The notes below the pieces were generated by a model. The model did no database searches, was not told the origin of the DNA, and saw only the letters and a list, made by a program, of their open reading frames with translations. Of a stretch of 64,000 nucleotides of DNA, positions 5,752 to 44,675 are shown one piece after another. The DNA is from Streptococcaceae bacterium (lineage in GTDB: Bacteria > Bacillota > Bacilli > Lactobacillales > Streptococcaceae): positions 1-64,000 of the forward strand of contig JAISYQ010000005.1 of the NCBI GenBank assembly GCA_031269775.1, given 5' to 3'. Numbering within the stretch: position 1 is the first letter of the stretch; the number at the start of each line of letters is the position of its first letter. Made by a program: the position numbers and the translations under genes.

Positions 5752-7125
5752 ATGGTAAAAAAGGGAAAAATGCAATTTTTATGCCAACAATGCGGATATA
5801 TTTCACCAAAGTATTTAGGTCGTTGTCCAAATTGTAAAGAGTGGAATAGCTTAGTGGAAGAAATTATAAAAGAAGAGGACTCTCCACATCTTGTTCGCAT
5901 TTCTTTAACTGGCGAAAAGACAAAGCCATTGCTTTTAAATGAGATTCAAGCAAATAAAACACCGCGTGTAAAAACAAAATTAGAGGAATTTAATCGCGTA
6001 TTAGGAGGAGGTGTCGTACCTGGTTCACTTGTTTTAATCGGCGGAGATCCAGGTATTGGAAAATCAACACTTCTTTTACAAGTTTCTAAGCAATTAGCAC
6101 AAACGGGAGGATTGGTTTTATATATATCCGGCGAAGAATCTGCTCAGCAAATAAAAATGCGTACCGAGCGCTTAGGTAGTATAGAAAATGAATTTTACAT
6201 CTATACGCAAACCAATATGCAAGATATTCGCATGCAAATGAAAAAATTGCAACCAAATTATGTCATTATCGATTCCATTCAAACAATGATACAGCCTGAA
6301 GTGTCCAGTATTGCAGGTTCAGTTTCACAAATCCGTGAAGTTACAGCCGAATTATTGCAATTAGCCAAAATAAATAATATTGCCATTTTTATTGTTGGCC
6401 ATGTCACCAAAGAAGGTTCCCTTGCTGGTCCTAGAATGTTAGAGCATATGGTTGATAGCGTTCTTTATTTTGAAGGAGAACGTCATCATAATTTTCGTAT
6501 TTTGCGTGCTGTGAAAAATCGTTTTGGTTCAACAAATGAAATTGGCATTTTTGAAATGAGTCAAGATGGATTAAAAGAAGTTATTAACCCGTCTGAGATT
6601 TTTCTAGAAGAAAGATTAGATGGAGCAACGGGTTCAGCAATTGTTGTTGCTTTAGAAGGAACACGTCCTATTTTAGTAGAAATTCAAGCTTTGGTATCTC
6701 CCACAATTTTTGGTAATGCTAAAAGAACAACTACAGGGGTGGATTACAATCGTGCTGCCTTGATTATGGCTGTTCTTGAAAAACGAGCAAATCTTTTATT
6801 GCAAAATCAGGATGCGTTTTTAAAAGCAGCTGGTGGCGTGCGCTTAAATGAACCTGATATCGACTTAGCTGTTGCTATTGCTATTGCTTCTAGCTATAAG
6901 GAAAAAGGAACATCTTTTGATGAATGTTTTGTTGGCGAAATTGGTTTAACTGGTGAAATTAGACGAGTAAATCGCATCAACGAACGGATAAAAGAAGCAG
7001 AAAAGTTAGGATTTTGTAAAATTTATATTCCAAAAAATCATTTGCAGGAATTAGATAAATTTTCTGAAATAAAGATTATTCCTGTATCTACATTATTAGA
7101 AACATTGACAAAAGTTTTTAATTAA
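5752..7125 (+). CDS. radA: DNA repair protein RadA
   Basis: A RecA-related helicase that promotes branch migration and processes recombination intermediates. The 457-aa protein has a four-Cys zinc finger (C11, C14, C25, C28), Walker [11 protein letters not shown] at 97-106, the diagnostic KNRFG motif at 255-259 and a C-terminal Lon-protease-like domain ending the chain. ATG follows AGAAAGGAATAAT. Only 4 nt separate its stop from that of the convergent permease gene, so there is no room for a dedicated terminator. Confidence 0.97.
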
Positions 7126-23816: not shown

Positions 23817-23943
23817 AATGTTTAAAACTCATATTCTCTTATATGTTGAACGATTTAAAAATTACTTCAAGCTTTGCTTGATTTACAACTTGTCTAATAC
23901 GATTTCATCACTGATAATTATATTAAAAAGGTTGGTAAAAATT

Positions 23944-24807
23944 ATGAATTGGAATTTTGGGCAAGTTTATCAAAGAATTCGTAAAGAAAAAGGTTTGTCA
24001 CAAAAAAATGTTTGTGGAGACTTAATTTCAAGAACAACTTTATCAAAGATTGAAAATTGTCATAGTGTGCCATCATATGAAACTTTTGCTTACTTACTAA
24101 AACAAGTGAATATGTCTTTTGAGGAATTTGAATTTGTCTGTAATGATTTTGAATTAGATGGCAGAATGAAAATTTTTTCTAAATTTGATATGGCTATTTC
24201 AAATGAAAATATTCAAACACTGTCTGAATTAAGAAAAGATTGCATTAATTTTTTAGAAAAAAATCATGATTTAGGAATTTCAGATTTATTAATGACCATT
24301 GATTATTTAATTCTTATTCATAAAGACACTGAGATAGAGAACACGAAAGCAACTAAGTTAATTAATGTCCTTTGGAAAAAGTTAGAGCTTATTGATACTT
24401 GGTATTATAACGAAATAAAGATGATTAATTGCATTTTATTTTATTTCCCCATAGAGACAGTTTTGAGCTTTTCTGTCAAATTAATTGAATCAATCAAAAA
24501 ATATGAAGGTTTTAGCAAAGATATTGATAATTTTTGTTGTGCTGTTTATACCAATCTGGCAACACTTTATCTTTATAAAAATTTTTATATAGAATGTCTT
24601 GAAATTAGTAAATTGATTATAGAATTAGCACAAAGTATTAAACGTTATGATGTTTATTGTCTTGGCAATGTGAGAATTGGACTTTGTATGAAAGACAAAC
24701 AAAAAATTCAAAATTCAATTAAAACTCTCGAATTTTTTAGCGAAATTGAACTTGTCAAAGAAATAAAAAAAGAAGTTAAACGATTTTTTCCATTGATTAA
24801 TGGCTAA
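23944..24807 (+). CDS. Rgg/GadR/MutR-type transcriptional regulator
   Basis: A 287-aa protein with an N-terminal XRE-type helix-turn-helix (about 5-62, including GLSQKNVCGDLISRTTLSKIE split over two helices) and a C-terminal alpha-helical repeat region. This is the layout of Rgg regulators, which bind short peptide pheromones and control bacteriocin or virulence loci. The ATG at 23944 (MNWNFGQVYQ) is the family start; the frame is open for 42 more codons upstream, but these look unrelated. It converges with the phosphatase gene of the peptide-secretion locus. I found no clear pheromone gene next to it. Confidence 0.85.
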   Translation: MNWNFGQVYQRIRKEKGLSQKNVCGDLISRTTLSKIENCHSVPSYETFAYLLKQVNMSFEEFEFVCNDFELDGRMKIFSKFDMAISNENIQTLSELRKDCINFLEKNHDLGISDLLMTIDYLILIHKDTEIENTKATKLINVLWKKLELIDTWYYNEIKMINCILFYFPIETVLSFSVKLIESIKKYEGFSKDIDNFCCAVYTNLATLYLYKNFYIECLEISKLIIELAQSIKRYDVYCLGNVRIGLCMKDKQKIQNSIKTLEFFSEIELVKEIKKEVKRFFPLING

Positions 24808-24917: not shown

Positions 24918-26978
24918 TTATTTCAATTTCTTAACTAATTTTAAAATATTCTTCCCATCTTTATATTCATATTCAAGATTGTCCATCATTTTTTTAACCA
25001 TATAAATACCAAGTCCACCAATTGGTTTATCAAAAATATCACTGTCATCATCTTCATTACCTTTAGCTTCTATAGGATTAAACTCAAAGCTATCATCAAT
25101 AAAGGTAAGTGACATTTTTTCTTTTTCTATTTCTATAATAAAAGTTAATGTACTAGCTTTAGAATGATTTAAAACATTTGAAACAAGTTCATCAACAGCT
25201 ACCATAAAAGCATGTTGAGTCTTCGTATCAATAACTTTTCTATCCATGGCTTTCTCAATAAAGTTAAGTGCTTTATCTGTCATCTGCTCATCAACTGCTA
25301 AATCAAGTTTTTCTATCAACGCTTGCTCACTTCCTTTAGTAATCATTAATAAAGCTAACATTGTAATATCATCAAATTGTGCTACCCCTTGTGCATAACT
25401 ATCAATATCCGCAAGAATATTTCTTAACATCACACCAACTTCTTCATGCATATGTTTTTGGCAAGTTTCCTTTAAGCGATCCCAACCAAAAGATTCGTTT
25501 TCTTTATTAACAGCATCAGGCACTCCATCTGTATAAAGTAATAAAATCTCTCCGGGTTTTAAAAAAAGTTCATTAATCACATACCGCGTGCCTTCCATAC
25601 CTCCAAGGACAAAATTTCGTTTCTCCGGCTCAACATATCGTACTGCTTTGTCATTTCTATCCATAATAATCAAAGGCTCATGCCCTGCATCAGCATAAAA
25701 TAAACGACCTGTTTTAACATCAAAAACTCCAAGAATACTTGTTGTAAACAGTGATGCTTCGTTTCCTTCGCAAAGCTCATTATTAACACGATTAAAGACT
25801 TTATCCACAGAAAGTCTTGCTTGCGTGTAGTCTTTAATTAAGGTCTTTGAAATAACCATAAAAAGTGCAGCCGGAACGCCTTTATCACTAACATCCCCGA
25901 TAACAATTGCTATATGATCATCATCTAACATAAAGAAATCATAAAAATCTCCACCAACTTCTTTAGCCGGACGCATTAAAGCATGTAAATCAAATTCACC
26001 GCGATTTGGTTCAAATGGGAAAATTTTCGGTAACATATCTGATTGGATTTGTGTTGCTACATTTAACTCTGTACCCATTCTTTCTTTATCTTTTGTTACT
26101 TGCGTTAAATTAGTAATATAATTATTAATATCTTCTTCCATTTTTTGAATGTCTTTTGTTAGCTGACCAATCTCATCCCGTGAACGAAAATTTAATTTAC
26201 TAATCTCTGTTTGCTCATTTTCTGAATTCATTGAGATTGATCTATCTTTTACAAACTTATTAGCTGCTTTTGAAATAAGGGCGATTGGTTGAACAACTAC
26301 TTTATTTAACAGTAAATAAAGAATAAGAATCGAAAATATCATTAAAGCAAAAATAAGGACAAACATTTGCTTTAAAAAGTTGTACAATTTATTAATAACA
26401 TCTTGCATAGAAATATCTGCACCAATCATAGCAATTACTTCATTCTTATTATTAAATATTGGACTAGAAATACTCATTAACCATCCATATTTAGAAGTTT
26501 TAGTCATAAATGCCTTTGTTCCTTTACGTAAATCAATATTTTTCTCCCCTACATCCAAATGATATGAATCTCCAGGAATCATAGCATTTGAACTAGTATC
26601 TGTATCCATAATCGCAATAGATTTATCTTTTTCATATTTTTGAATATATAAAAATTTTACATCATTAGCTTTTTTTACTTGCATTAACATTTCACGTTGT
26701 TCTTTATAAATTTTATTATTTTTTAATGATTCTTTATAATCCTTCACTTTAGCTTTATTTTTATCTGTTAAATTTTTGATAATCATTTGTAGTTGATCTT
26801 CATCTATAGCAAGAGCTACCGTTTTAGTTAATTCTCCAATCTTTTGTTCATAAGTTGATCGAATTAACTTTTCAGTAAAAACATAATTAAACAGCAAAAC
26901 AACAAAAGACATTAAAGCTAATAAAATAATTGCAATCGCACTTATTTTAAAACGTAAAGAGCCTTTCCTTTTCTTCAT
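24918..26978 (-). CDS. Membrane sensor with SpoIIE-type PP2C phosphatase and HATPase domain
   Basis: A 686-aa protein with membrane helices at about 11-33 and 195-228 enclosing a Cache-like extracellular sensor, then HAMP and coiled coil (about 230-310), a PP2C-type SpoIIE phosphatase (VGGDFYDF, IGDVSDKGVPAALFM, LLYTDGVPDAVN) and a C-terminal GHKL ATPase of the RsbW/SpoIIAB type (AVDELVSNVLNHS as N box, GGLGIYMVKKMM as G box). The phosphatase and anti-sigma-like kinase of a partner-switching system are thus in one chain. The likely substrate is the STAS protein at 36677-36976. It starts 4 nt after the sensor/MFS gene and ends the operon. Confidence 0.9.
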   Translation of the reverse strand: MKKRKGSLRFKISAIAIILLALMSFVVLLFNYVFTEKLIRSTYEQKIGELTKTVALAIDEDQLQMIIKNLTDKNKAKVKDYKESLKNNKIYKEQREMLMQVKKANDVKFLYIQKYEKDKSIAIMDTDTSSNAMIPGDSYHLDVGEKNIDLRKGTKAFMTKTSKYGWLMSISSPIFNNKNEVIAMIGADISMQDVINKLYNFLKQMFVLIFALMIFSILILYLLLNKVVVQPIALISKAANKFVKDRSISMNSENEQTEISKLNFRSRDEIGQLTKDIQKMEEDINNYITNLTQVTKDKERMGTELNVATQIQSDMLPKIFPFEPNRGEFDLHALMRPAKEVGGDFYDFFMLDDDHIAIVIGDVSDKGVPAALFMVISKTLIKDYTQARLSVDKVFNRVNNELCEGNEASLFTTSILGVFDVKTGRLFYADAGHEPLIIMDRNDKAVRYVEPEKRNFVLGGMEGTRYVINELFLKPGEILLLYTDGVPDAVNKENESFGWDRLKETCQKHMHEEVGVMLRNILADIDSYAQGVAQFDDITMLALLMITKGSEQALIEKLDLAVDEQMTDKALNFIEKAMDRKVIDTKTQHAFMVAVDELVSNVLNHSKASTLTFIIEIEKEKMSLTFIDDSFEFNPIEAKGNEDDDSDIFDKPIGGLGIYMVKKMMDNLEYEYKDGKNILKLVKKLK

Positions 26979-26982
26979 TCCA

Positions 26983-29937
26983 TCAACCGCCTTTTTTAAG
27001 ATTTAATAAACCAAAAATTAAACCTACAAACAATAAAACTCCACATACAATTAAAATACCTGTACTTTTTCCTAAAATAAGCACAGTACTAAAAAGAAGT
27101 GGCCCTACCGCTTGACCCAAATTTTCAAACAAGGAATATGCTCCTATTGATTTATTTACACCATACAATTCTACTTCCTTAAGACTGGAAAAATAAACAT
27201 TTTGTGCAGTAAATGTAAAACTATCAGCAATTCCCATTACGATAAGTACAATCAGTGCAATAAGCAAGGTTGGATTAAAGCCAAATACAGCAAAAGCAGC
27301 GGCATATAAAAATACTCCCAATAAAACTGCTTTTATTTTCCCAAATTTTTCTAAAATAAATTTAGCAATGATCGGCCCTAAAAACACAACCCAAACACCG
27401 TTTAATAAAAATGCTTGACCAATTTCTGATTCCGACAATCCTTTTTCTTCTCCAAAAATCGGGAAAAAATAATGTAGAAAGTAACTACAAGCTAAATAAG
27501 GAATTAAAATTCCAAGAAAATAAACTAATATTTTTGGTTTAAATAAAAATTTTAAAAAATTAATTCCTATCTCTTCTGATATTTTCTTACGCACAGGCAT
27601 TTTATCAATAAAATAATAAACATATCCCAAGATCATCACTACTACAAGACAAGCAATATAAAATACTTGCCTATTACCAATAAAACCAGCTAAACTAGCC
27701 CCAATAATAACACTACTATTAATACCAGAAAGAATTGCAGCATTAACCGAAGTAAAACCACTTTCACGCTCTTTATCATTTTTTAAAGAACTAATATAAA
27801 CATTTACTACCACAAGGGTCATACCACTGCCAAAGCCAGAAATTGCATTCCCTATAATTAACTGCCAAACATTTTGCGCAAGGCCACAGCCAAACAACCC
27901 CAAAGTAAAACATACTAAAGAAATATTTAGCATCTTTTTAATACCTAATTTTTCACTAAGTGAGCCACCAACAAAACCTAAAGCTACAAATAGTACTTCA
28001 AAAGTCATCGGCAAAGCTGATGCAATATTTTTAGAGATCCCTAAAAATGGAGTATAAATTGAAGCTGCATAAATTGGCATAAACGCTGCTGCAAGGTTAC
28101 TGGCAAAAAAAGAAGCAAAAACAATTGGCCGAACAACATTGCTATGAATAAAAGGTTTTCTTAAAGATTCTTGTCTATTTTTCTTCCATTGTTGATAAGT
28201 TTCTAAGAAAGTTAACATCTCTCTAACTATCAACATCATTACTACAACTAAACTTATCGTACTAAAGATAATTTTACGAATTATCTGATTGTTACGACGT
28301 ACATACTCATCCATATTAGAGCCAACTTCAATCAAACCAATAACTCTTTTTTGATCATCAAATATAGGATTAAGCGCATAAAGATAAGCGCCTTCAACTG
28401 TATTTAAGTTAACTTTTTGAATTCCTTTTTTTGTCCTTACAATCTTTTGCTCAACACTTCCCTCATAAGGCCATTCCCATGGATAATAAGAACCACTGCG
28501 ATTATTTGTATTTGCAAAAGTATAAATAATATCTTTATCAATTTTATATAATTCAATATAACGAGGTTCATTCCATTTATTTCCATCTTCTACTACATTT
28601 ACTATTTGCTTACGAATTTTTGCATAAGCTTTTGTTGTAAAATCCTGTGGAGAGTCTATTTCTTTTAATGCATCTTGATCTAAAATACTCGCAACTAATG
28701 TAGCAATCGAACTCATTTGACCCAATACTTCGTTTTTATATCGTTCGTTATAATTATTAATAACCATATTTGAAACAAAAAATGCTGTAATAGCTATAAA
28801 TATAAGTATTCCCATCTCTAAACGCCAAGATAAATCTTTAGAAATTTGTAAAATCATACGTTTTATAAATGGATACAATAAAAATAAACTTAATATAAGC
28901 AATATACTTACTGAAAAAATAAAACCAAAACTATATAAACGCTGAAAAAACTGAACCTCAATAGCTTTCTCTTTCGTTATTTTTCCATTGTCTTTATTAA
29001 ATTCCACTAATGCATTATCACCACTTAAAAACAATTTATCTTTTTTATCTAAAGCTAAATGATAATATAACGGCTGTTTAGACAGAGATTCATTTTGAGT
29101 CCCAGGTTGCTTTAAAAATTGTACTTTTTTAGATGAAGGAGTGATACGTAAAATAGATCTTGTACAAATATCTGTTGCAAAAATTGCACCATCACTAGCT
29201 AAAGCCATATTCCAAGGAAAACTACTTACTTTTTCCCCATTTATATTCATTTGATGATCTTTAGCTATATAAATAATTTCTGATCCATGATCTAAAATTT
29301 TATAAATATCACCATCTTTTGAAAGCGCAAACATTTCATCGTTTTTAAAAATGAACGAGTGTAACAATCGATCAGCATTGGCAAAATGAAAATGTTTTAT
29401 TTTTCGTAATTTTTTAGATTTTTCATTAACTTCATATAAAATAAAATCATTCTTTTGTCTTTTAATAAGATGTAATTTACCATTATCATAAGTTAAAGAT
29501 TGAAAATTTCCTTCAAAACGGTTGCGTTCTTTTTTTGGATAAGTATGATTAAAAATTGTTTTTATAAATTTTCCATTAGTATACTTTAAAATTTTCTGTT
29601 GCGCTACGTGAATGCTATCATCCTCTTCTAAAACAGTATCTAAAATATAAATATCGTCTTTATTTGCTGCAATTTCAGTTGCTTCATGAAAATTTTTTTT
29701 ACCACCTTGAATAACATAATCAAGCTGACCTGCTTTTGTACATTTTACAATTTTTTGCTTTCCCTGTTGAATTATTAACGAATTATCATTTTGATTTACA
29801 ATAATCCCATTAATATTTTCAAGAAAAATTTCTGTTTTGCTTCCAATTAGATGAAAATATCGAAACGTATAAATTGCAAAAATTGCAAAAATAACTAGTA
29901 AAATACTTAATAAAATAGTTCGCTTACGAACATTCAT
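26983..29937 (-). CDS. Multidomain membrane protein: extracellular propeller-like domain, Cache-like sensor and MFS transporter
   Basis: A 984-aa protein with unusual composition. After an N-terminal membrane helix (about 7-27) comes a beta-rich extracellular part (30-330) with repeated GKLHLI, DDIYILD and DGDIYKI-like strands, resembling an NHL/WD-type propeller. Helices at about 335-357 and 372-394 are followed by a second extracellular Cache-like segment (395-555). Residues about 600-980 form a 12-helix major facilitator domain. The partner phosphatase has its own sensor, so this protein may perceive a ligand and transport something, or use the MFS fold for signalling. No substrate can be named. 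Confidence 0.8.
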   Translation of the reverse strand: MNVRKRTILLSILLVIFAIFAIYTFRYFHLIGSKTEIFLENINGIIVNQNDNSLIIQQGKQKIVKCTKAGQLDYVIQGGKKNFHEATEIAANKDDIYILDTVLEEDDSIHVAQQKILKYTNGKFIKTIFNHTYPKKERNRFEGNFQSLTYDNGKLHLIKRQKNDFILYEVNEKSKKLRKIKHFHFANADRLLHSFIFKNDEMFALSKDGDIYKILDHGSEIIYIAKDHQMNINGEKVSSFPWNMALASDGAIFATDICTRSILRITPSSKKVQFLKQPGTQNESLSKQPLYYHLALDKKDKLFLSGDNALVEFNKDNGKITKEKAIEVQFFQRLYSFGFIFSVSILLILSLFLLYPFIKRMILQISKDLSWRLEMGILIFIAITAFFVSNMVINNYNERYKNEVLGQMSSIATLVASILDQDALKEIDSPQDFTTKAYAKIRKQIVNVVEDGNKWNEPRYIELYKIDKDIIYTFANTNNRSGSYYPWEWPYEGSVEQKIVRTKKGIQKVNLNTVEGAYLYALNPIFDDQKRVIGLIEVGSNMDEYVRRNNQIIRKIIFSTISLVVVMMLIVREMLTFLETYQQWKKNRQESLRKPFIHSNVVRPIVFASFFASNLAAAFMPIYAASIYTPFLGISKNIASALPMTFEVLFVALGFVGGSLSEKLGIKKMLNISLVCFTLGLFGCGLAQNVWQLIIGNAISGFGSGMTLVVVNVYISSLKNDKERESGFTSVNAAILSGINSSVIIGASLAGFIGNRQVFYIACLVVVMILGYVYYFIDKMPVRKKISEEIGINFLKFLFKPKILVYFLGILIPYLACSYFLHYFFPIFGEEKGLSESEIGQAFLLNGVWVVFLGPIIAKFILEKFGKIKAVLLGVFLYAAAFAVFGFNPTLLIALIVLIVMGIADSFTFTAQNVYFSSLKEVELYGVNKSIGAYSLFENLGQAVGPLLFSTVLILGKSTGILIVCGVLLFVGLIFGLLNLKKGG

Positions 29938-29974
29938 TTACAGATCACCTTTCGTCTTTCGTTTCGTAGACTTC

Positions 29975-30844
29975 TTATGAAATCAATTTTACCGTATACT
30001 TATGAAGTAAAAATACAGGATGCATTCGTTGCTTAAATTGACGCAAACCAGAAAGCCCCATATCTTCTCCTAAGTTCACCCATTTAATTTTCCCTTGAAA
30101 TTGCCAATGAAAATTATGATAAAAAAATTTCGCTAAACCACGAGCCGATATGCTAGTTTTCATAAAATGATTGACAAGCATTTCGCCTCTTTCTTCAACC
30201 ACCTTTACAGAAACAGGAACCCCTTGATCATAAAGAATAGATCCTTTCACCTTAGGATGACCAATTAATTTTTTTATTTCTCCATATGCTTTAACTTCAT
30301 CACCAAAAACATGAGTTTTTTGATGAAATTTACTCCATAATTTTACTACTTTATAAGAATCTTCCCAATTATTATTATTTATTTCAACTAATTTTGGTTG
30401 ATGATGATTTTTATAATAGTTATATTCTTTACGAGCTTTTTTACTAAGTATTAAAAATTTATCCAAATCATAAACATAATCACTAAAATCTATGTCATAT
30501 TTAATATCCCATTTCATTCCTTTTATGCTATTAAAAATCGGCAATTGAGCTGCTATAACGTATGAAAATTCATTAATTCCTAAGGCAGTCAATTCTCTAA
30601 TAATTGATTCATTTACATCACCTAAAATCGTATAGCAACGTTTTCCATAAGCATCATCTTGAACTAATAAAGCTGTTTTTTCATCTAATCGCATGCACTC
30701 TATATTTAAAAAATTACGATAAGCATATAACAGTGGAAAAGATAAATCAGAGATTCCCACATGATACGTTAATTTAGAAAACCATTTCTCATCATTTATA
30801 CTTAATTTTTTTAAATTTAAATCTACATTTAAAGCAACTTTCAT
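29975..30844 (-). CDS. DUF2156 (phosphatidylglycerol lysyltransferase-like, GNAT fold) protein
   Basis: A 289-aa soluble protein without membrane helices. The C-terminal motif (WVNLGEDMGLSGLRQFKQRM, then HPVFLLHKY) matches DUF2156, the GNAT-like domain of MprF-type aminoacyl-lipid transferases. The N-terminal half carries a related domain with LDEKTALLVQDD. Stand-alone DUF2156 proteins are thought to acylate or aminoacylate a substrate; the acceptor is unknown here. It is the first gene after the promoter at 30893-30921, 37 nt upstream of the sensor/MFS gene. Confidence 0.75.
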   Translation of the reverse strand: MKVALNVDLNLKKLSINDEKWFSKLTYHVGISDLSFPLLYAYRNFLNIECMRLDEKTALLVQDDAYGKRCYTILGDVNESIIRELTALGINEFSYVIAAQLPIFNSIKGMKWDIKYDIDFSDYVYDLDKFLILSKKARKEYNYYKNHHQPKLVEINNNNWEDSYKVVKLWSKFHQKTHVFGDEVKAYGEIKKLIGHPKVKGSILYDQGVPVSVKVVEERGEMLVNHFMKTSISARGLAKFFYHNFHWQFQGKIKWVNLGEDMGLSGLRQFKQRMHPVFLLHKYTVKLIS

Positions 30845-30892
30845 ATTTTATTCACCTACTATTTAAGAAAAATAACAATATTACCTAATTAG

Positions 30893-30921
30893 ATTATATT
30901 AAAATTAAATTAATTTTTCAA
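30893..30921 (-). promoter_or_regulatory. Strong sigma-A type promoter for the DUF2156-MFS-phosphatase operon
   Basis: On the minus strand TTGAAA and a perfect TATAAT are separated by exactly 17 nt, about 49 nt upstream of the DUF2156 start codon. The sensory genes can therefore be transcribed independently of the export genes. Confidence 0.75.
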
Positions 30922-31010
30922 GAGTAATTGATATTTTTTTTAAAAATAAATGAAATAAAATTAATAAAAGAAAACAATTTTAAATTTTATTCGCTGTCCT
31001 TTCCATTTAA

Positions 31011-33563
31011 TTAGGCCATTTGTCGCTTAGCAAGTTCATAAAACAAACCCTTTTGCTTCATTAATTTCTCATAATTCCCACTTTCAATAATATGACCCTT
31101 ATCTAAAACTAAGATCCGATCACAATTCTGAATCGTACTTAAACGATGAGCAATAACAATTCTTGTTGCATCAAGTTTATTCAAACTGTCAGTTACCATC
31201 TTTTGAGTCGTATTATCAAGTGCTGAAGTAGCTTCATCAAAGAAAAGGATATTTGGCTTGCCAATGATGGCTCGTGCAATCAAAATTCGCTGTTGTTGAC
31301 CACCAGAGATGGCCCCACCCATTTCTGAGAGCACCGTATGCATACCCATTGGCATATGCTTAATATCTTCAGCCAGTCCCACTTCCTCAGATACCCGCTC
31401 AGCATCTTTCATCGTTGCATAAGGAGCAGTGATGGTCATATTTTCAAAAATTGATCCGCCAATTAATTTACCATCTTGCAACACCACACCGAAACGCTTA
31501 CGCAATTCACGTTTATCCATGCCATCGATGTCTTTACCATCATAGTAAATCTTGCCTGAATTTGGTGTTTCAAATCCAAGTAATAATTTTAGCAAAGTCG
31601 ATTTCCCAGAACCTGATCCACCAACAATTCCGATATATTCACCCTTTTTAATATGAATTGATAAATCTTTTAAAATAAGACTTTCATCTGGATCATAAGA
31701 AAAATCAATATTGGTAATTTCAATATCTCCAGATAATTCCCCAGGTAATTCTGCATCATCTGAATATTCTGGCGCTGCTTCAAAAATTGGTTTTACACGT
31801 TCTAAAATTGGCTTAACAACATTTAAAGTAAGAACAGAGGTAGCAACGCCTGTCATAGCTGCTGAAAAAGCTCCAAACGCAGCTAAAAAGGCACTAAATT
31901 CACCTACAGATAAATTTAACTTGCCATTAATCATCTGATAGTAGAAAAGAAGCGAAAAACCATTTGCAACAAAAAGTGAGAGAACTTTTGCTACAGAATC
32001 TAATCTACTATTGTGTAAAGCTATTCCTTTTGAAGCTACATAAGGCTTAAGATACTCATACATCGCATGCTCTTCAACTCCTGCAACACGAACCTTTTCA
32101 ATCCCTAATAAAAATTGATACATCTTAGAATTAGCCTCAGAACTAAATTGAATCAAATCGTTTTGATATTTTGTCTGAACAAAAGCAATTCCAATAATGA
32201 TAAGTAAAATCACTACTAATAATGCAACACCAATCATCGCTAAACTGCTAGCATAATTAAACATCTGAAAAACATACATAATTGAAAATGCCGCTGAAAC
32301 AACGGTTTTAAGCCCTGTATCTGAAAAGATTTTAAAAAACCCTTGCAACTGTAAAATCCGCTCAGCTAAATCAGCTGCTTTATAGCTTCTAAAAAAACTT
32401 GATGGTAAATTAAACAAACGCTCACACGTTGCTGCAAAAATCGCATTTTCCATATTTGAAATACCAATTGCCGATGTTAAATTTTTAACAATTGTAAATG
32501 ACAAATTTCCCAAATTACAAGCAATTAAAACCATTCCGATTTGTAATATTCCCGTTGATAAACTCATTGGAATATATTTATCATAAATTTGTTGATTTAG
32601 CATTGGTAAAAGAATTCCAATAAATGTCCCTAAAAATGCTAACAAGATAAAACGAAAAATTTCTTCTCCAGTAACTTCTTTCATAGCAAAGCTAAACATT
32701 TTTTTAATTGTAATTTTCTCATTTGGAAAAGGTTTATAAATAGATTGTGCTTGTGGTTTGAGCAATCTAGCATATGATTCATCAACAGTTAGTGTCTCAT
32801 GCGTTGATGGATTATAAGCAATATATCCTTTACGCTTAGGTAATAAAGCAACTGTTTTATTACCTTTTTCCAAAAAAGCAATTAATGGACCAGAATTATG
32901 CTTATACCATCCTGGCGTTAAGATTACCTCTCTTGTTACAAAATGAGAAATCCTGGCGACATCCTGAAATTTAAAACGACGTCCATTCGAAGCCACAATC
33001 TTGTTAAAAGAAGCAATATTAATCCCTTTTTTATCACAAAGATATGCTGTTGCATCGTAAATATGATTTCCTGATTCAGGTATTTCCTGCTTAAAAGCAC
33101 TACGGTTAAAAACCGAATAAATTAAACGCAAATTGCGCTGATTAGTTTCTTTACTTTCAACTGCAGAAGCAAAGATAAAATTCTCTTCCTTAACAATAGT
33201 TCTTTGATATTCTTCTAAAAGAATTTCAGCAAAATCTTCTTCACCAAAATTAGTGATCATAGCTTGATTAACAAAATTATCGGCAATTTCTTTGGTCATT
33301 GTTTGCGACTCTTCCTCTAAATCTGCTGTATCTAAAGCCACAAAACAAAATAGCCACTCTTCTGCGTCTTTTTTTTGATAAAAACCTGGTAGTCTCTCAC
33401 CAACCTGCGCTTCATGAAGTAAATAACGCCGTCCCATTGCTCCTTTTAAAATAGGGACAATATAAACTAAAACAGAGCCGCTCTTTACAACATAAGTACT
33501 TTCTGAATTTTTAGTATAGTAAAGTTTTCCACCATGTAGATGGATAGATGTATTCTCTGACAA
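31011..33563 (-). CDS. NHLM-type peptide export ABC transporter without peptidase domain
   Basis: An 850-aa protein with a long non-catalytic N-terminal region (1-290), a six-helix ABC membrane domain (about 305-580) and an ATPase domain with Walker A GGSGSGKST, signature ISGGQQQRILIARA and Walker B ILFFDEATSALD. Size, N-terminal extension and pairing with a C39-type transporter fit the second ABC protein of NHLM bacteriocin-export systems. TTG start at 33563, 9 nt from GGAGG. It lies 87 nt downstream of the C39 transporter and is last in the export operon. Confidence 0.88.
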   Translation of the reverse strand: MSENTSIHLHGGKLYYTKNSESTYVVKSGSVLVYIVPILKGAMGRRYLLHEAQVGERLPGFYQKKDAEEWLFCFVALDTADLEEESQTMTKEIADNFVNQAMITNFGEEDFAEILLEEYQRTIVKEENFIFASAVESKETNQRNLRLIYSVFNRSAFKQEIPESGNHIYDATAYLCDKKGINIASFNKIVASNGRRFKFQDVARISHFVTREVILTPGWYKHNSGPLIAFLEKGNKTVALLPKRKGYIAYNPSTHETLTVDESYARLLKPQAQSIYKPFPNEKITIKKMFSFAMKEVTGEEIFRFILLAFLGTFIGILLPMLNQQIYDKYIPMSLSTGILQIGMVLIACNLGNLSFTIVKNLTSAIGISNMENAIFAATCERLFNLPSSFFRSYKAADLAERILQLQGFFKIFSDTGLKTVVSAAFSIMYVFQMFNYASSLAMIGVALLVVILLIIIGIAFVQTKYQNDLIQFSSEANSKMYQFLLGIEKVRVAGVEEHAMYEYLKPYVASKGIALHNSRLDSVAKVLSLFVANGFSLLFYYQMINGKLNLSVGEFSAFLAAFGAFSAAMTGVATSVLTLNVVKPILERVKPIFEAAPEYSDDAELPGELSGDIEITNIDFSYDPDESLILKDLSIHIKKGEYIGIVGGSGSGKSTLLKLLLGFETPNSGKIYYDGKDIDGMDKRELRKRFGVVLQDGKLIGGSIFENMTITAPYATMKDAERVSEEVGLAEDIKHMPMGMHTVLSEMGGAISGGQQQRILIARAIIGKPNILFFDEATSALDNTTQKMVTDSLNKLDATRIVIAHRLSTIQNCDRILVLDKGHIIESGNYEKLMKQKGLFYELAKRQMA

Positions 33564-33650
33564 TATTAAACGCCTCCTTTTTACAAGTTTGCTAAATACA
33601 CAAAGATTGTCCTTATGCTACTAAAATATACTTGTAATGCAATCTATATA

Positions 33651-35825
33651 TTATGTGTTTTGAATCAACCGTTGATAATGACCTGGCAATTTCGCCAATT
33701 CTTCGTGACTTCCACGTTGAACAATCTTACCGTATTCCATAACAATAATCTCATCACTATCACGAATGGCAGATAATCTATGTGCTACGATAATACATGT
33801 ACATCCGCGACGTTTGATATTATCAATAATTTCTTTCTCAACCAGTGGATCAAGTGCGCTGGTTGCTTCATCCATAATTAAAACTGTCGGATTAGTAGCC
33901 AAAGCACGCGCAATCTCTAAACGCTGACGCTGGCCACCTGAAAGGTTAGAGCCACCTTCGGATAATTCATAATCATAAGCTCCTGGCTTTTGCGTAATAA
34001 TATCATGAATACAAGCATCTTTTGCTGCTTGCACCATGTCAACTTCCATGACATGCTTATTCCACATTGTTAAATTCTCACGAACTGTTCCTGCAAAAAT
34101 TTGCACGCTCTGATTTACCACTGACACACTGGCATGAAACACTTCTGGCGGAATATTTCTAACAGCATGCCCATCAAACTTAATACTGCCACCCCATTCG
34201 TGATAAAGACCACTAATCACTTTTGCAACCGTTGATTTACCAGAACCTGAAGCTCCCACAAAAGCAATTGAACTCCCAACTGGCAAATCAAAAGAAAAAT
34301 TCTCAATCAATGGTGGCTCTAAAATCGAATAACCAAAACTTACCTTATCCAAAACAACATGACCTGATAATTTTGTTTCAATCTTATCTTTTTTCACGTC
34401 TTCAAGATAAGCTTCATCTTTTTCATAATTTAAAATATCTTCCACACGTGCCATATCAGTTTTGGTTGTTTGAATCTTTTGCGTAAAGCCTGAAAGGGCA
34501 TTGATTGGTGTAACAAAACTTCCAAGCAAACTAGTATATGCAATCAACTGACCAACAGATAAATCCCCACGAACGACCAAAATTCCACCAAACATCAAAA
34601 CCAAAACTTGTGTTACACCTTGTGAAATTTCCGGAATACCATTTAAAATCTCTTGTGTGCGACTCATTTCTTGACCTTTGGTTAACGCTTTACTGTAGTA
34701 ACCAAGAATTCTACCAACATAATCATTTTCCACACCAGAAGCTTTCAATGAATTCATAATCGAAATCCCTGTATAGAAAATACCACTCATCTTACCGGAA
34801 TCTTGCTGCACTTTTTTAGATAAATCAGCAATTTTTTGCGAAGACCAACGCATTAAGAAAATATTTAAAATAGCTCCAATAACCCCGATCAATGTTAATG
34901 GAATGCTATAAACTAATAATAAAACTAAATAGAACAAAGAAACAAAAATATTCAAACCTGTCTCTGCTAAGTCCCCTGCCATAAATACGCTTACATTATT
35001 GTTATTATCTACCCGTTTTGCCAAATCACCAGGAGCTCTTTGAGAGAAAAAAGCAATTGGTAAACGTAATAAATGAGTAATAAATTTTTGTGCGGACAAT
35101 AAAGCTAATTTATTTTGAAATTTCATTAACAAAATACTTTTCATATAAGTTAAGACCATCTGAAAAGCTACTGCACAAATTAAAACCCCCAAAAACTGCA
35201 TAAACCACGCAGTATTTTGATTAATTAAAATATCATCAATAAATACTTTCGAACAAATAGGAATAATCAATCCTGGAACAATCAAAAGCAAACCAATGAT
35301 AACTAAAGATAAAACCGAAGCTGTCTGTCCTTTTAAGCGTAATTTAACAAAATCGAGCATGCTACGATTTTGTTTTTCTTTAACAAAATCTTCTCCCTTC
35401 GGCATCTCTAAAACAATTCCAGTATAGCCTTCATCAAGCTCTTCTTTTGTTAATTTACGCTTTCCTTGTGCAGGGTCATTAAGATAATAATAATCCCCAC
35501 TTTTTCCTTCATAAACTACAAAGTGATTAAAATTCCAGTGAATAATCGCTGGTGTCTCTACTTCTTCAATTAATTTTTTTAAACTATAACTATATCCTTT
35601 GGGCTCTAGTCCCATTTTTTTAGCTGCTTTTACAATGTTACTAGCTTTTACCCCGTCACGAGAAACTCCAGTTTCAATCCGAAGTTCTTCAAGCGGCACA
35701 TCTTTACCATAGTAACTTAATATCATCGCCAAAGAAGCAGCACCACATTCTGTTGCTTCCATCTGGAAAACAGTTGGCGTTTTTGCACGATGAATATTTT
35801 TATGAACTATTTTTTTCTCTTCCAT
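33651..35825 (-). CDS. C39 peptidase-containing bacteriocin ABC transporter
   Basis: A 724-aa protein that cleaves double-glycine leaders while exporting the peptide. The N-terminal C39 peptidase is intact: Cys27 in QMEATECGAASLAM, His101 in NFNHFVVYE and Asp117 in YYLNDPAQG. A six-helix membrane domain (about 165-450) and an ATPase (GASGSGKST, NLSGGQRQRLEIARA, LIMDEATSALD) follow. Its obvious substrates are the two GG-leader peptides at 37268-37985. It starts 8 nt after the HlyD-like gene. Confidence 0.95.
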   Translation of the reverse strand: MEEKKIVHKNIHRAKTPTVFQMEATECGAASLAMILSYYGKDVPLEELRIETGVSRDGVKASNIVKAAKKMGLEPKGYSYSLKKLIEEVETPAIIHWNFNHFVVYEGKSGDYYYLNDPAQGKRKLTKEELDEGYTGIVLEMPKGEDFVKEKQNRSMLDFVKLRLKGQTASVLSLVIIGLLLIVPGLIIPICSKVFIDDILINQNTAWFMQFLGVLICAVAFQMVLTYMKSILLMKFQNKLALLSAQKFITHLLRLPIAFFSQRAPGDLAKRVDNNNNVSVFMAGDLAETGLNIFVSLFYLVLLLVYSIPLTLIGVIGAILNIFLMRWSSQKIADLSKKVQQDSGKMSGIFYTGISIMNSLKASGVENDYVGRILGYYSKALTKGQEMSRTQEILNGIPEISQGVTQVLVLMFGGILVVRGDLSVGQLIAYTSLLGSFVTPINALSGFTQKIQTTKTDMARVEDILNYEKDEAYLEDVKKDKIETKLSGHVVLDKVSFGYSILEPPLIENFSFDLPVGSSIAFVGASGSGKSTVAKVISGLYHEWGGSIKFDGHAVRNIPPEVFHASVSVVNQSVQIFAGTVRENLTMWNKHVMEVDMVQAAKDACIHDIITQKPGAYDYELSEGGSNLSGGQRQRLEIARALATNPTVLIMDEATSALDPLVEKEIIDNIKRRGCTCIIVAHRLSAIRDSDEIIVMEYGKIVQRGSHEELAKLPGHYQRLIQNT

Positions 35826-35833
35826 ATTTTCAC

Positions 35834-36652
35834 CTACTCAAAGCCAATTTTTTCTTTAATAGTTGGAATTAACATGCTAATTGGATGTTTTTCTGATGTT
35901 ACAATATCTGCAGTAACAGGTGTTCCTCCCTCAGGTTTTACATTTTTACCCTGCTTAGTTGACCATTCATAACCACTGACTGAAGTATTATCTTTTTTCA
36001 AATCACATCTTACTTCTACAACAGGTCCTTGTGCACTAAATAATTTTACTAAACTTTCATCATGAAGTGCTGAAAACATATCTGCTGAACTACTTACCGC
36101 ACCACCAACATAATCTACTTTTGCTTCCATATGCCCATATTCTTCTTTTGGAAATGCCGAAACATAAACATTTACTGGCATTCCTTTTTTAATTGTCTTA
36201 GCTACTTGAATACCAACATAACTTGTTACATAGGCTTGATTTTGCATCTGCTTAATTCGAGCAACTATCGATCCTTTAGCAATAGGCGTGCCATTAGCCA
36301 CAGCTATTGAGGTAACTGTACCACTTGTTGTTGCAACAATATCCTCTCCACCTTTAATTTCAAATAATACTTTTCCTCTTTTTACCTTATCTCCTGATTT
36401 AACAAGCGCCCTTTCAACAATTCCCTGAGACATAGAATAAATGGATTGCAAATCTCCAACATTCATATAAAAACCTTGAGCAGTCTGTGTTTTAGGAACA
36501 GTACTAATCATTGACCATATTACTGTTGCTACTACAATTAAGCCTGCACCTATAAGTATTAACCACGTCATTGGTGAAGCAACAACAACTAATTTATCTA
36601 ACTGCTCTGGGGAGCTTAATTTATCTAATGATTTTTGTCGAAATATTGCCAT
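35834..36652 (-). CDS. HlyD-like membrane-fusion protein of the NHLM-type exporter
   Basis: A 272-aa protein with one N-terminal membrane helix (about 29-52) and an extracellular biotinyl-lipoyl-like domain (VERALVKSGDKVKRGKVLFE, then a TSGTVTSIAVANG half). It is short for an HlyD protein and has little coiled coil, as in secretion proteins of NHLM systems. It probably links the C39 transporter to the cell-wall side. ATG has AAAGGAG at 8 nt. It lies 24 nt after the STAS gene and 8 nt before the transporter. Confidence 0.88.
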   Translation of the reverse strand: MAIFRQKSLDKLSSPEQLDKLVVVASPMTWLILIGAGLIVVATVIWSMISTVPKTQTAQGFYMNVGDLQSIYSMSQGIVERALVKSGDKVKRGKVLFEIKGGEDIVATTSGTVTSIAVANGTPIAKGSIVARIKQMQNQAYVTSYVGIQVAKTIKKGMPVNVYVSAFPKEEYGHMEAKVDYVGGAVSSSADMFSALHDESLVKLFSAQGPVVEVRCDLKKDNTSVSGYEWSTKQGKNVKPEGGTPVTADIVTSEKHPISMLIPTIKEKIGFE

Positions 36653-36676
36653 GATACCATCTCCTTTAAACTTGTA

Positions 36677-36976
36677 TTATTCAATCGTTAAAATATCCGC
36701 AAAACCACTGATTTCAAAGATCTCCATCACCTCATCACTTACATTTATCAAAACCTGGCTACCAGAACCTGCTCGCAATTTCTTTTCCATCTTTAAAAAG
36801 AAACGCAAACCTGCACTTGAGATATACTCAATATCTTTTAAATTTACGATAACTTCCTCATTACCTTCTAAAGTTTCCTCAATAGAATTAAGCTGAGGTG
36901 CTGTTGTTGTATCAACCCGTCCACTTAAAGTAACTAATACATTTTTTCCATTTTTTTCTTTATCAATATTTAACAT
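36677..36976 (-). CDS. STAS-domain anti-anti-sigma factor-like protein (RsbV/SpoIIAA type)
   Basis: A 99-aa protein from the ATG at 36976, which follows AAGAGGAGCGAATTT; longer frames lack such a site. It is a single STAS domain with the phosphorylatable serine region IEYISSAGLRFF (candidate Ser53/Ser54). In partner switching, an HATPase kinase phosphorylates this serine and a SpoIIE-type PP2C phosphatase removes the phosphate; both activities are in the protein at 24918-26978. It is the first gene of the export operon downstream of the hairpin at 37137-37177. Its eventual target is not evident. Confidence 0.92.
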   Translation of the reverse strand: MLNIDKEKNGKNVLVTLSGRVDTTTAPQLNSIEETLEGNEEVIVNLKDIEYISSAGLRFFLKMEKKLRAGSGSQVLINVSDEVMEIFEISGFADILTIE

Positions 36977-37136
36977 AAATTCGCTCCTCTTTCTTAAAAT
37001 TTTTTGCTTACATCTAACAGCCACGGAAATAAACTTAGAGTCTATAAATAAAAAAATAATGCAAGTAAATTAAGCTGTTTGTAGTTTATCAAAAAAAATA
37101 TTAAAAAGGAAAAAAAACGATTTGAAAATATTTCTA

Positions 37137-37177
37137 AAAAGACTTAATTACATGAAAAATGCGAAATTAAGCCTTTT
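37137..37177 (-). terminator. Attenuator-like hairpin between precursor peptides and export genes
   Basis: 13 nt at 37137-37149 pair with 37165-37177 (one mismatch), followed on the minus strand by a run of five T. It lies between the second precursor gene and the STAS gene, so partial read-through would give high precursor and low exporter expression. Confidence 0.55.
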
Positions 37178-37267
37178 AATTTATAATATTTACTAACTGT
37201 TAACTCCAATGTTTCAACCACCTTAACCACTGCAAATAGCCTGCCTGAAATCTTTAGTGAATGAAAA

Positions 37268-37543
37268 TTAAGAATCAAAATTAATCAGTCCTTCAATTAC
37301 ATGATCCAAATTAATAACCTGAGCAACTCCACCAACTACTTTTGTTAACTCTTCATCGCTTAAAGTTTTCTCACCTGCTTGTGAAGCCTGAAAATTTTGA
37401 ATATCATCAAGCAATTCAGTTTCTGTATAATCAGAAATATACCCTTTTGCTACTGCTAAAGCTTCTTCTTTAGACTTTATATTAATAAACTTCTTCATTG
37501 CTGTTTTATCTTTTTTAAGCAATTTCAGCAGTCTATTTTCCAT
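37268..37543 (-). CDS. Double-glycine secreted peptide precursor 1
   Basis: A 91-aa protein. The leader of about 72 residues is acidic and helical (KEEALAVAKGYISDYTETEL) and ends in LTKVVGG, a classic C39 cleavage site. The predicted core is 19 residues, VAQVINLDHVIEGLINFDS, without Cys or Thr and with one Ser, so lanthionine or azole modification is unlikely. The leader is clearly related to that of precursor 2 (KEExLA, YTExx, then an acidic stretch). ATG follows AAAGGAG at 10 nt. The leader resembles the Nif11/NHLP type in style. Confidence 0.85.
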   Translation of the reverse strand: MENRLLKLLKKDKTAMKKFINIKSKEEALAVAKGYISDYTETELLDDIQNFQASQAGEKTLSDEELTKVVGGVAQVINLDHVIEGLINFDS

Positions 37544-37631
37544 TAGTTCTCGACTCCTTTTAAATTTTAATAAAAATAATTCTATAAATTTCAGAAAATA
37601 ACTAAAATTTATAGAATTATTTAAAAATTTC

Positions 37632-37985
37632 TTATTGACCTTGACCTGGTTGTCCTTGATTCATTGCTTTATACTGACCGTAAATTCCAAAACCTAAATT
37701 TGCTAATGCACCTATTGCCTGTAAACCCATACTCAAATATGCCATATTCTGTTCAGCAGATCCTCCAGCAACTTTTTCTAAAGCTTCAGTATCTAATGCT
37801 TCGTCTCCTACAATTTCCATAGATGCTTTTGTTTCAGTAAAATCTTTTACCATTTGCTCCTCTGTATAGCCTGGTATATGTTTTTTAAGTAAAGCAAGAA
37901 TCTCTTCTTTTGTAGTTAATTTTGACATTTGCTCTCCTATACTAGGATTACTAGTTAATAACTTTGTAAGACTATTTGTAACCAT
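37632..37985 (-). CDS. Double-glycine secreted peptide precursor 2 (bacteriocin-like)
   Basis: A 117-aa protein with a leader of about 75 residues ending in LEKVAGG. The predicted core has about 42 residues: a polar start SAEQNMAYLSMG, a hydrophobic amphipathic part (LQAIGALANLGFGIYG) with GxxxG-like spacing, and a hydrophilic tail rich in Gln/Gly/Pro. This looks like an unmodified class II-type bacteriocin or signal. No Cys is present. It is the first gene of the locus, 46 nt downstream of a good promoter, with AAGGAG at 9 nt. The adjacent C39 transporter is the expected exporter. Confidence 0.85.
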   Translation of the reverse strand: MVTNSLTKLLTSNPSIGEQMSKLTTKEEILALLKKHIPGYTEEQMVKDFTETKASMEIVGDEALDTEALEKVAGGSAEQNMAYLSMGLQAIGALANLGFGIYGQYKAMNQGQPGQGQ

Positions 37986-38028
37986 AAATATTCACTCCTT
38001 AAATTGTAATTATTTTTATTTCAAAGTG

Positions 38029-38058
38029 AGTATAACAACTTATTATTTTAAAAAGCAA
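38029..38058 (-). promoter_or_regulatory. Promoter of the precursor-peptide operon
   Basis: On the minus strand TTGCTT and TATACT are spaced 18 nt, with a TG one base before the -10 (extended -10). It ends about 44 nt from the start codon of precursor 2. Confidence 0.65.
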
Positions 38059-42479: not shown

Positions 42480-44675
42480 TTAAGCAATGTCATGCTTATT
42501 TTTTTCTCGTTTATTTTTCATAAAAAAATATACTGCCACAGAAATTGTAAATCCTCCAAATATTAAGAAAATAATACTTTCTCGCCAACCTGTAGCTGGT
42601 AGAATTCCCGATGAAAAATTTTCAATTTTGCCTGAAATATTAACAATTCCAGCATCATCAATATTAAGTGCCTCTCCATATCCCGCATTTAAATTTGATG
42701 GATTCTCACCAACACCATCTCCAACCTCAAATTTAAGACCTTTTACAGCTTTATCCAAATAAAATCCAGCAGGTGCTTTAACTTCTACTATCTCATAATT
42801 CCCTTTTGCTAATCCAGGAAGATCAACAATACCAGTGATTTTTCCATCTTTTGTACTATCATCTGTTGTATAAAATTTCTGCACCTTATTATTTACAAAT
42901 AGAGCCTCTATTGTTAATTCTTCTTTTTTAGTGATTTTTATCCAATGTAGTAATCCTCGCTCATCAAATCCGCCATAAAAGTTACCTTCTTCATTTTTTA
43001 AAACAAAAGCAGCTGTATCACTAAGAATCTTTTCATCTGTTCCACCCTTGACCTTATCAAAGTCTTTCTCAAAAACAACAACATATTCAGAATCATCAAC
43101 TTCAAACTCTTTACCATAAGTTTCTTCATTATCTGGATCGCTTGGAGGATCTAAAAGAAAGGTCGGTTTGCCTATTTTAGAATCTCTTTTATCAACTAAC
43201 GAATTATTATCTTGAAAAAAACTTTTATTTATATTATTTAAATAATGTTTAATAACTCCTTTTTTTTGTTTTGCATTATTAAGATTGCTAGTAAAATCAG
43301 CTTGAAATTCCCCTAATAATTTCAATCTTCCTTTATCGATCCTTTTATATGATAGTTGTTCCACAGCATTATGATCATATGGGTTTTTAACTTTTTCATA
43401 TCCCACTATATTATTAATATTCGATTCCCTTGGAGCATCATTATTAACCAACATAATGATCGTATATGTAAGAATTTGTCCAGCTATTGCTTCTAACTTT
43501 GCTGTATTTTCATCTGTTACTTCATCAGGAACATTAATAAACATATCCGATCTTGTGGCTTTATATTTTTCTTCATTATTGTATTCCACAATAAAAGGTA
43601 ACCCGCCAATCAGACCACTATCAACACCTTTCTCCCATGTATAGATCGACTCTCCACCAAGCTCAATATCATCAAATTCATAAAAACTTAAACCTTTATC
43701 AGGTAAATCTCTTAAAAGCAAATGATTATATAAATATTTACGATGAATATTACCATTATCATCTGTTTTGGCAATAACATGATCAAAATCCATCGGAATA
43801 GGAACACTAATCTCAAAAGTTACAGGATCTCCAATTGAACGACTCACTACCTGATCGACATCTGTACCTCCTGAACTAAATCCAGAATTCCCTGAAATTC
43901 CATCATCCAAATCCATAAATGATTCTTCAAAATTGGGCACTAAACGCTTTTCAATCCTCTCAATTGCATTTTTCACATAGATATCAATCTCTCTTTTTGA
44001 TTTTGCATCCCCACCTTCTTCTTCAATAATTGGCAAAGAAAGCACAGTATTTACCGCTTTTACAACAGTTTCTTCTAGACCTGTTACAGCATTTACTGAT
44101 TCTGAAGTATCCGTTTCAATAATTATGAAAATTTTATTCTTTCCACTATTTAAAGGTTGATCAACAACAAAATCAGCTATCCCATCTTCTTCTTCACTTG
44201 CAAAATTTTTTCCCCGTCCTGTTTTTGCAATAGCTAAAGGAGGAAATCCTTCTTTTCTTAATTCTCGCTCTGGTTTTGATTTAAAGAAAGAGGCCACCGA
44301 ATAATAAGCTGCTCTACGCTGAGGCTGTGTTGCTTTTGAAAGATCATGATCCTTTTCTTCATCAGTCTTAGCTTTAGAACCCATAGTTAACAATAAAACC
44401 TTTTCATAATAAGGTGTCACATCAAAAATTTTAAATATAATATTATTAATGGGATCATTATTTACAAATTGCGAAATTTCATTTTCAGGATTTTGAACAA
44501 TATTATCAAAGTCTCCTACAGATACTTTTCTTTTGTGCAATTTAATTGTTACTTTTTCTACTAAATCTTTTGTATCAATTGATCGAACAAAATTCAATGA
44601 ATTAAAAACATAAACACAAAGAATTAGCAGCAAAAAAATCATAGCTAAATTAATCGCTATTCTTTTTTTATACAC
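42480..44675 (-). CDS. LPXTG-anchored pilin-like surface protein with Cna-B type domain
   Basis: A 731-aa secreted protein. An N-terminal membrane helix (about 7-30) acts as signal anchor or signal peptide. The middle (about 270-420) resembles a pilin backbone domain (ISVPIPMDFDHVIAKT, then SFYEFDDIELGG). Residues about 560-680 form a Cna-B/SpaA-like domain with the E-box YEIVEVKAPAGFYLD. The sorting signal LPATG at 692-696, a hydrophobic helix and a basic tail complete it. GTG start after GGAGGG. No sortase or other pilin gene is nearby, so it is probably anchored by the housekeeping sortase A. Confidence 0.85.
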   Translation of the reverse strand: MYKKRIAINLAMIFLLLILCVYVFNSLNFVRSIDTKDLVEKVTIKLHKRKVSVGDFDNIVQNPENEISQFVNNDPINNIIFKIFDVTPYYEKVLLLTMGSKAKTDEEKDHDLSKATQPQRRAAYYSVASFFKSKPERELRKEGFPPLAIAKTGRGKNFASEEEDGIADFVVDQPLNSGKNKIFIIIETDTSESVNAVTGLEETVVKAVNTVLSLPIIEEEGGDAKSKREIDIYVKNAIERIEKRLVPNFEESFMDLDDGISGNSGFSSGGTDVDQVVSRSIGDPVTFEISVPIPMDFDHVIAKTDDNGNIHRKYLYNHLLLRDLPDKGLSFYEFDDIELGGESIYTWEKGVDSGLIGGLPFIVEYNNEEKYKATRSDMFINVPDEVTDENTAKLEAIAGQILTYTIIMLVNNDAPRESNINNIVGYEKVKNPYDHNAVEQLSYKRIDKGRLKLLGEFQADFTSNLNNAKQKKGVIKHYLNNINKSFFQDNNSLVDKRDSKIGKPTFLLDPPSDPDNEETYGKEFEVDDSEYVVVFEKDFDKVKGGTDEKILSDTAAFVLKNEEGNFYGGFDERGLLHWIKITKKEELTIEALFVNNKVQKFYTTDDSTKDGKITGIVDLPGLAKGNYEIVEVKAPAGFYLDKAVKGLKFEVGDGVGENPSNLNAGYGEALNIDDAGIVNISGKIENFSSGILPATGWRESIIFLIFGGFTISVAVYFFMKNKREKNKHDIA

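Follow-up and report, generated by a model that had tools for sequence, protein, structure and literature searches.

The window analysed here is a stretch of 64,000 nucleotides from the genome of a Streptococcaceae bacterium. Nine intact genes, as called from the open reading frames and read from the sequence, occupy positions 24918-37985, all on the minus strand and in the order in which an earlier note on this DNA had listed them; that note had drawn the block out to 38058, and the start of pepA places its end at 37985. The features are:

37632..37985, (-), pepA, a 117-aa double-glycine leader peptide (ORF call; Pfam/NCBIfam family none)
37268..37543, (-), pepB, a 91-aa double-glycine leader peptide (ORF call)
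37130..37180, (-), hairpin followed by a T-rich stretch, probable terminator (fold z -2.9; sequence reading)
36677..36976, (-), STAS protein of the RsbV/SpoIIAA type, 99 aa (PF01740 2.6e-15; TIGR00377 above cut-off)
35834..36652, (-), HlyD-type adaptor of an NHLM export system (TIGR03794 174.8 bits, cut-off 156.2)
33651..35825, (-), NHLM ABC1, C39 peptidase + permease + ATPase (TIGR03796 979 bits, cut-off 853.3; PF03412)
31011..33563, (-), NHLM ABC2, permease + ATPase (TIGR03797 778.7 bits, cut-off 709.4)
29975..30844, (-), DUF2156 / LPG_synthase_C protein, aminoacyltransferase-type (PF09924 1.8e-12)
26983..29937, (-), sensor-MFS protein, 984 aa (PF07690 2e-35; propeller PDB matches; alignment)
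24918..26978, (-), SpoIIE + HATPase_c_2 protein, 686 aa (PF07228 9e-42; PF13581 7e-13)

The genes from STAS onward are closely spaced, with gaps of 24 bp (STAS-HlyD), 8 bp (HlyD-ABC1), 87 bp (ABC1-ABC2), 166 bp (ABC2-DUF2156), 37 bp (DUF2156-sensor-MFS) and 4 bp (sensor-MFS-SpoIIE). The hairpin at 37130..37180, which a G+C-based terminator scan missed, is a probable terminator parting the peptide genes from the exporter genes; since it lies with its T-rich tail between pepB and the STAS gene, the peptide genes probably have a transcript of their own and the STAS gene would open that of the exporter. Another strong hairpin (z -5.2) is present downstream of pepA. A promoter scan found 76 sites against 74.7 in shuffled sequences, which is no excess, and was discarded. 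There are no direct or inverted repeats of at least 24 bases in the region, and thus no sign in it of a recent mobile element. A gene for an Rgg/GadR/MutR-like regulator (weak matches only) is found at 23818-24807; it was considered as a regulator of the block and rejected, as it is convergent with the block end and no equivalent gene was seen next to the block in either of the two siblings examined for their downstream flank. A Gram-positive pilin-type protein with a pilin D1 domain, a SpaA domain and an LPXTG-like anchor is encoded near the block at 42480-44675.

The HlyD-type adaptor and the two ABC proteins are adjacent on one strand and all exceed the curated NCBIfam cut-offs, so that they make up a complete NHLM trio; the earlier note had taken them for a C39 transporter and a separate NHLM transporter. 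In ABC2 an N-terminal domain of about 165 amino acids precedes the TIGR03797 match. The block contains no modifying enzyme, as the earlier note had said, and a search of the organism's own genome gave no LANC-like gene.

The most likely start of the STAS protein is the ATG at 36976 (giving 99 aa), which has AGGAG upstream. Its PDB relatives are SpoIIAA/RsbV, and an alignment shows that the phospho-serine motif YISSAGLR is conserved, with YISSAGL present in the window and its siblings. The SpoIIE-HATPase protein is predicted to be a membrane-anchored PP2C phosphatase and an RsbW-type kinase in one chain. Its metal-binding Asp motifs (GGDF, DVSDKG, YTDG and FDD) are all present, and its kinase half, which scores above the PF13581 cut-off, keeps the N-box VDELVSN and the G2 motif GGLGIY, with a Ser at the G1 glycine in the window. 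The closest named family of the phosphatase is SiaA (NCBIfam). The earlier note had called this protein Cache-HAMP-SpoIIE-HATPase; the last two domains are there, and the first two are represented only by motifs and weak NCBIfam matches (SiaA, ChvG), with no match in Pfam.

The sensor/MFS fusion that had been noticed before is indeed one. It begins with an NHL-type β-propeller (PDB profile matches to the Pizza and PknD propellers), followed by membrane helices, a Cache-like segment (weak sCache_3 matches in three homologues) and the MFS part (PF07690); the AlphaFold model is weak (mean pLDDT 41). The DUF2156 protein has a partial match of 47 bits to PF09924 (LPG_synthase_C, the MprF-type domain family); its nearest solved structure is the uncharacterised 2hqy (9e-11), and its AlphaFold model is also weak (mean pLDDT 52.5).

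The block and its peptides in the genus

The window's own genome (G000), that of a small gut-type lactic bacterium, measures 1.2 Mb in 32 contigs and is estimated to be complete. It encodes a single STAS protein and one HATPase_c_2 protein above the cut-off, and PF04542 matches in it an RpoD-like protein of 383 aa and one weak sigma-like protein of 180 aa on contig C22. These lie outside the block, so the earlier statement that the block lacks a sigma factor holds. As far as contig ends allow, the block is common to all five genomes of the genus, in the order STAS-HlyD-ABC1-ABC2-DUF2156-(GNAT)-sensorMFS-SpoIIE, and none of the genus blocks contains a sigma gene. The DUF2156 gene always adjoins the sensor-MFS gene, with or without the one GNAT gene between them. 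In one sibling (G004, contig C44, loci L065 and L066) the DUF2156-sensorMFS pair stands twice in tandem before SpoIIE, which looks like the addition of a further sensor to the one switch. A STAS gene was found in three of the siblings, each time as a single copy, but not in G002, whose assembly is 58% complete and whose contig breaks inside ABC2. The chromosomal sites, the flanks and the peptide cargo of the block differ from genome to genome: G003 has LanM and an FMN reductase, and G004 has NHLP-leader precursors, a PoyD-type epimerase and a SPASM radical SAM enzyme beside the exporter, while the window has only two plain double-glycine peptides.

PepA has a 75-aa leader ending in ...LEKVAGG and a 42-aa core that is Gly/Gln-rich, hydrophobic and without Cys; compared with sibling G003 its leader is 73% and its core 35% identical. 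In pepB the leader has 72 aa and ends in ...KVVGG, and the 19-aa core (VAQVINLDHVIEGLINFDS) is 79% identical to that of G003, with 69% identity in the leader. Neither peptide has any Pfam or NCBIfam match, and the NHLP and Nif11 leader models fail to recognise either, so by these models the window peptides are not NHLP peptides, even though the exporter by its family matches belongs to the NHLM system. Three further double-glycine peptides with relatives of the pepB leader are encoded in G000, far from the exporter: two on contig C16 (L252:5574-5870 and 5977-6264) and one on contig C2 (L253:5808-6110). The C16 pair has counterparts with similar cores in G003 and G004. The recurrence of the pepA/pepB leader type at these places suggests that one exporter probably serves several scattered peptides.

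Switch genes beside NHLM exporters in the Clostridia

Among 120 sampled relatives, TIGR03797 scores above its cut-off only in this genus. We searched the same model in 291 genomes of the class Clostridia, 348 of one family and 299 of another, fetched 97 NHLM loci together with flanks of up to about 9 kb to either side, and scanned them with profiles for which the window and its relatives supplied the sequences (home-made profiles with loose cut-offs, E 1e-3, and 40 bits for counts). The enrichment set comprised 94 loci (1.64 Mb), the two seed genomes being left out, and expected STAS numbers were taken from the genome-wide PF01740 counts in the same genomes. These loci contain 32 STAS genes where 2.47 are expected (about 13-fold), and 29 of the 94 have at least one where 2.42 are expected; the Poisson probability of about 1e-24 is a guide only, as related genomes are not independent. 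The class and both families were reached by way of seed loci that have the exporter/switch pairing, and the broad class sample, which is the least biased, still has 4 STAS genes against 0.45 expected; enrichment is seen in all three samples (loci with STAS, 4/23, 12/45 and 13/26). STAS, SpoIIE and HATPase genes are all present in 17 loci. A clustering of neighbours that uses no profiles has at the top of its non-exporter list STAS (30 loci), ECF (25), SpoIIE (24) and HATPase (21). The switch genes are on the strand of the exporter in 71 of 81 cases, as against 623 of 844 for other ORFs. The phospho-serine motif is found in 28 of the 36 clostridial NHLM-linked STAS matches, and all four metal-binding motifs in 23 of the 26 exporter-linked SpoIIE proteins. 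The earlier note had proposed a search for such co-occurrence, and switch genes do recur beside NHLM exporters in Clostridia; its view that the cassette is special to a lactic-type Firmicute is not supported, since this is a common clostridial arrangement, which this Lactobacillales genus probably shares by transfer.

About two thirds of the clostridial NHLM loci have no STAS gene within about 9 kb (loci on broken contigs are counted here, and since many clostridial contigs are short the absence of a gene is weak evidence), so the exporter does not need STAS. The exporter-linked STAS proteins do not form one exporter-specific clade (15 changes on the tree against a shuffled mean of 19.8), and there is thus no sign of a dedicated exporter-binding lineage. 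An ECF sigma factor was considered as the partner of the switch and is not supported by the co-occurrence test: ECF and switch genes occur near NHLM loci independently of one another (Fisher p = 0.62). A sigma factor is not part of the exporter/switch unit; ECF genes lie near many NHLM loci on their own account.

A tree of ABC1 proteins places the window and its genus with locus L154 (genome G615) at full SH-aLRT support, and then with L155 (90%); both of these loci carry switch genes. G615 (L154/L261) has a gapless, same-strand run that begins SpoIIE, HlyD, ABC1, ABC2, HATPase, STAS and a CPBP protease, continues with a second HlyD, ABC1 and ABC2, a 313-aa protein and an NHLP precursor, and ends with a SPASM radical SAM enzyme, a PoyD-type epimerase and a second NHLP precursor. 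The HATPase and STAS genes thus sit between two NHLM trios, and no sigma gene is found in this compact run. This interdigitated run is the strongest single evidence that exporter and switch share a function; with the conservation of the block through the genus and the STAS enrichment it makes the exporter/partner-switch link, which the earlier note had put forward, a real one. The STAS protein of L261 also has a weak match to the MlaB model (2e-5).

We searched 391 Clostridia for the sensor part of the MFS protein, which matched in nine genomes. The sensor-MFS gene directly follows NHLM ABC2 in L122, L172, L182 and L185, and is divergent from ABC2 in L186. At four other loci (L144-L147) it accompanies SpoIIE, with DUF2156 in three of the four and HATPase in two, and the exporter is absent from the stretch fetched; the sensor is therefore a portable part. 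The earlier note had reckoned with a coincidental link should the sensory genes occur widely apart from the exporter, and to the extent of these four loci they do occur apart from it. A MATE transporter family occurs near nine NHLM loci, and the members checked carry a C-terminal HATPase_c_2 (RsbW-type) fusion; two lie directly beside STAS genes (L160:81-1847 and L203:17336-19063). With the sensor-MFS protein near switch genes as well, transporter-like proteins seem to feed such switches repeatedly.

Possible output of the switch

The reading that we prefer, at a probability of about 0.4, is that the partner switch controls NHLM export, with the STAS protein as its output, most likely acting on the exporter itself. 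The NHLM machine (HlyD, C39-ABC1 and ABC2) would have an RsbU/RsbW/RsbV-type partner switch of its own. A cue, from outside or coupled to transport, might be read by the sensor-MFS protein and by the Cache-like part of the SpoIIE-HATPase protein, upon which the phosphatase and kinase halves of the latter would set the phosphorylation of the conserved STAS serine. STAS could then act on the exporter, in the manner of MlaB on the ABC ATPase MlaF, and would thereby switch the export of several double-glycine peptides from the block and from other sites in the genome. STAS is the likely output because the kinase has a membrane tether, which leaves STAS as the sole soluble component that is free, and the exporter would be its most economical target: no other partner in the block is constant, the block has no sigma gene, and MlaB provides a precedent. 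Control at the exporter is also plausible if, as seems probable, that exporter serves scattered peptides.

Each half of this arrangement has known relatives. The window has all three exporter proteins of the NHLM/NHLP system (TIGR03794, TIGR03796, TIGR03797), but adds partner-switch genes and peptides whose leader is foreign to the NHLP and Nif11 models (an NHLP-leader precursor is present in the cluster in sibling G004 and in L154). Like RsbU/RsbV/RsbW and SpoIIE/SpoIIAA/SpoIIAB it has a PP2C phosphatase, an RsbW-type kinase and a STAS protein with a phospho-serine motif; unlike them it has phosphatase and kinase fused and membrane-bound, in a sigma-free block linked to an exporter. BtrU and BtrW of Bordetella act on the type III secretion process itself, so that BtrU/BtrV/BtrW likewise tie a partner switch to secretion (PMC8256260), though in a proteobacterium and without an ABC exporter. 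SypE, both a kinase and a phosphatase, acts on a STAS protein, SypA (PMC8256260), and SiaABCD includes the closest named family of the window phosphatase; the outputs of these two systems differ, being a biofilm target and, for SiaC-SiaD, a diguanylate cyclase. The nearest parallel to the proposed contact is MlaFEDB, in which the STAS-only MlaB binds the ABC ATPase MlaF with Thr52, at the STAS phospho-site position, in the interface (PMC7367683); MlaFEDB is, however, a lipid transporter, the MlaB fold is shorter than that of SpoIIAA, no kinase or phosphatase of MlaB is known, and its phosphorylation is unproven.

The exporter and the switch thus belong to known families, and as far as we have searched their recurrent union at NHLM exporters is not described: open-licence PMC papers on NHLM/NHLP with STAS, SpoIIE or partner switching do not report the link, and the founding NHLP paper does not mention it. 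NHLM exporters accompany RiPP genes in many gut Firmicutes, and we found no account of the timing of their export, nor is the target established for several sigma-free partner switches (SypA, RbaV). The survey makes the pairing a feature of many gut peptide exporters and not a one-strain curiosity, and points to protein phosphorylation as a possible switch of bacterial peptide export. That NHLM exporters of gut Firmicutes are in general gated post-translationally, by a phospho-switchable STAS protein that binds the ABC exporter under a transporter-like sensor and without a sigma factor, is a wider proposal that we advance only tentatively. If true, it would give a phosphorylation-gated ABC peptide exporter and a sigma-free class of output for partner switching. 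Since the window's block is compact and unites exporter and switch in a genome of 1.2 Mb that encodes only one STAS protein, it allows the question of the target to be tested directly; for genome mining, switch genes beside exporters are a marker of peptide clusters likely to be under environmental control.

The main rival, which we think unlikely, is that the HATPase half sequesters a sigma factor (RpoD or the 180-aa sigma-like protein) and STAS releases it, placing the exporter and peptide genes under transcriptional control. In its favour, STAS and HATPase resemble RsbV and RsbW, the RsbW of Chlamydia binds sigma66, the primary sigma factor (PMC4552016), a weak sigma-like protein is present at C22, and ECF genes lie near about a quarter of the clostridial NHLM loci; yet ECF presence is independent of switch presence, neither the genus blocks nor the L154/L261 run has a sigma gene, and the window kinase is fused to a membrane phosphatase. 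An improbable alternative is that the switch acts on some other cytoplasmic factor encoded outside the block (an enzyme, a second-messenger protein or a regulator), the exporter being one of several co-inherited outputs. No such gene occurs in the genus blocks, and the switch is strongly tied to exporters in particular, although the kinship of the phosphatase to SiaA, in whose system a diguanylate cyclase is the target of SiaC, the GGDEF gene beside the switch at one clostridial locus (L005) and the finding of the sensor module away from exporters all point in that direction. We consider it quite improbable that the DUF2156 protein and the MFS part work as a pair in envelope protection or immunity, by aminoacylating and flipping lipids, so that the switch adjusts self-protection and not export: the MprF-type synthase domain family of DUF2156 and the tandem duplication of DUF2156 together with sensor-MFS in G004 would fit, but the MFS protein bears propeller and Cache-like sensor parts, and the pair is found with SpoIIE at exporter-free loci. 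Lastly, a chance neighbourhood, in which the genes have a locus or a mobile element in common but no function, is very improbable in the face of the 13-fold STAS enrichment in all three samples, the strand bias of the switch genes and the interdigitated L154/L261 run, even though exporter and switch parts also occur apart and the block lies at different chromosomal sites in the genus.

Possible large substrates of the exporters

Two siblings encode a large protein that starts with the double-glycine leader of pepB, after which come BspA-type leucine-rich repeats and a calpain-family protease domain (L255:315-3914 in G003, 1199 aa; L257:5352-7106 in G001, 584 aa). These proteins are possibly a large cargo of the exporter. 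In some Clostridia, proteins of about 2500-2800 aa are encoded immediately after NHLM ABC2 (L132:6671-14221 and L133:11161-19455), and these too are possible large exported substrates.
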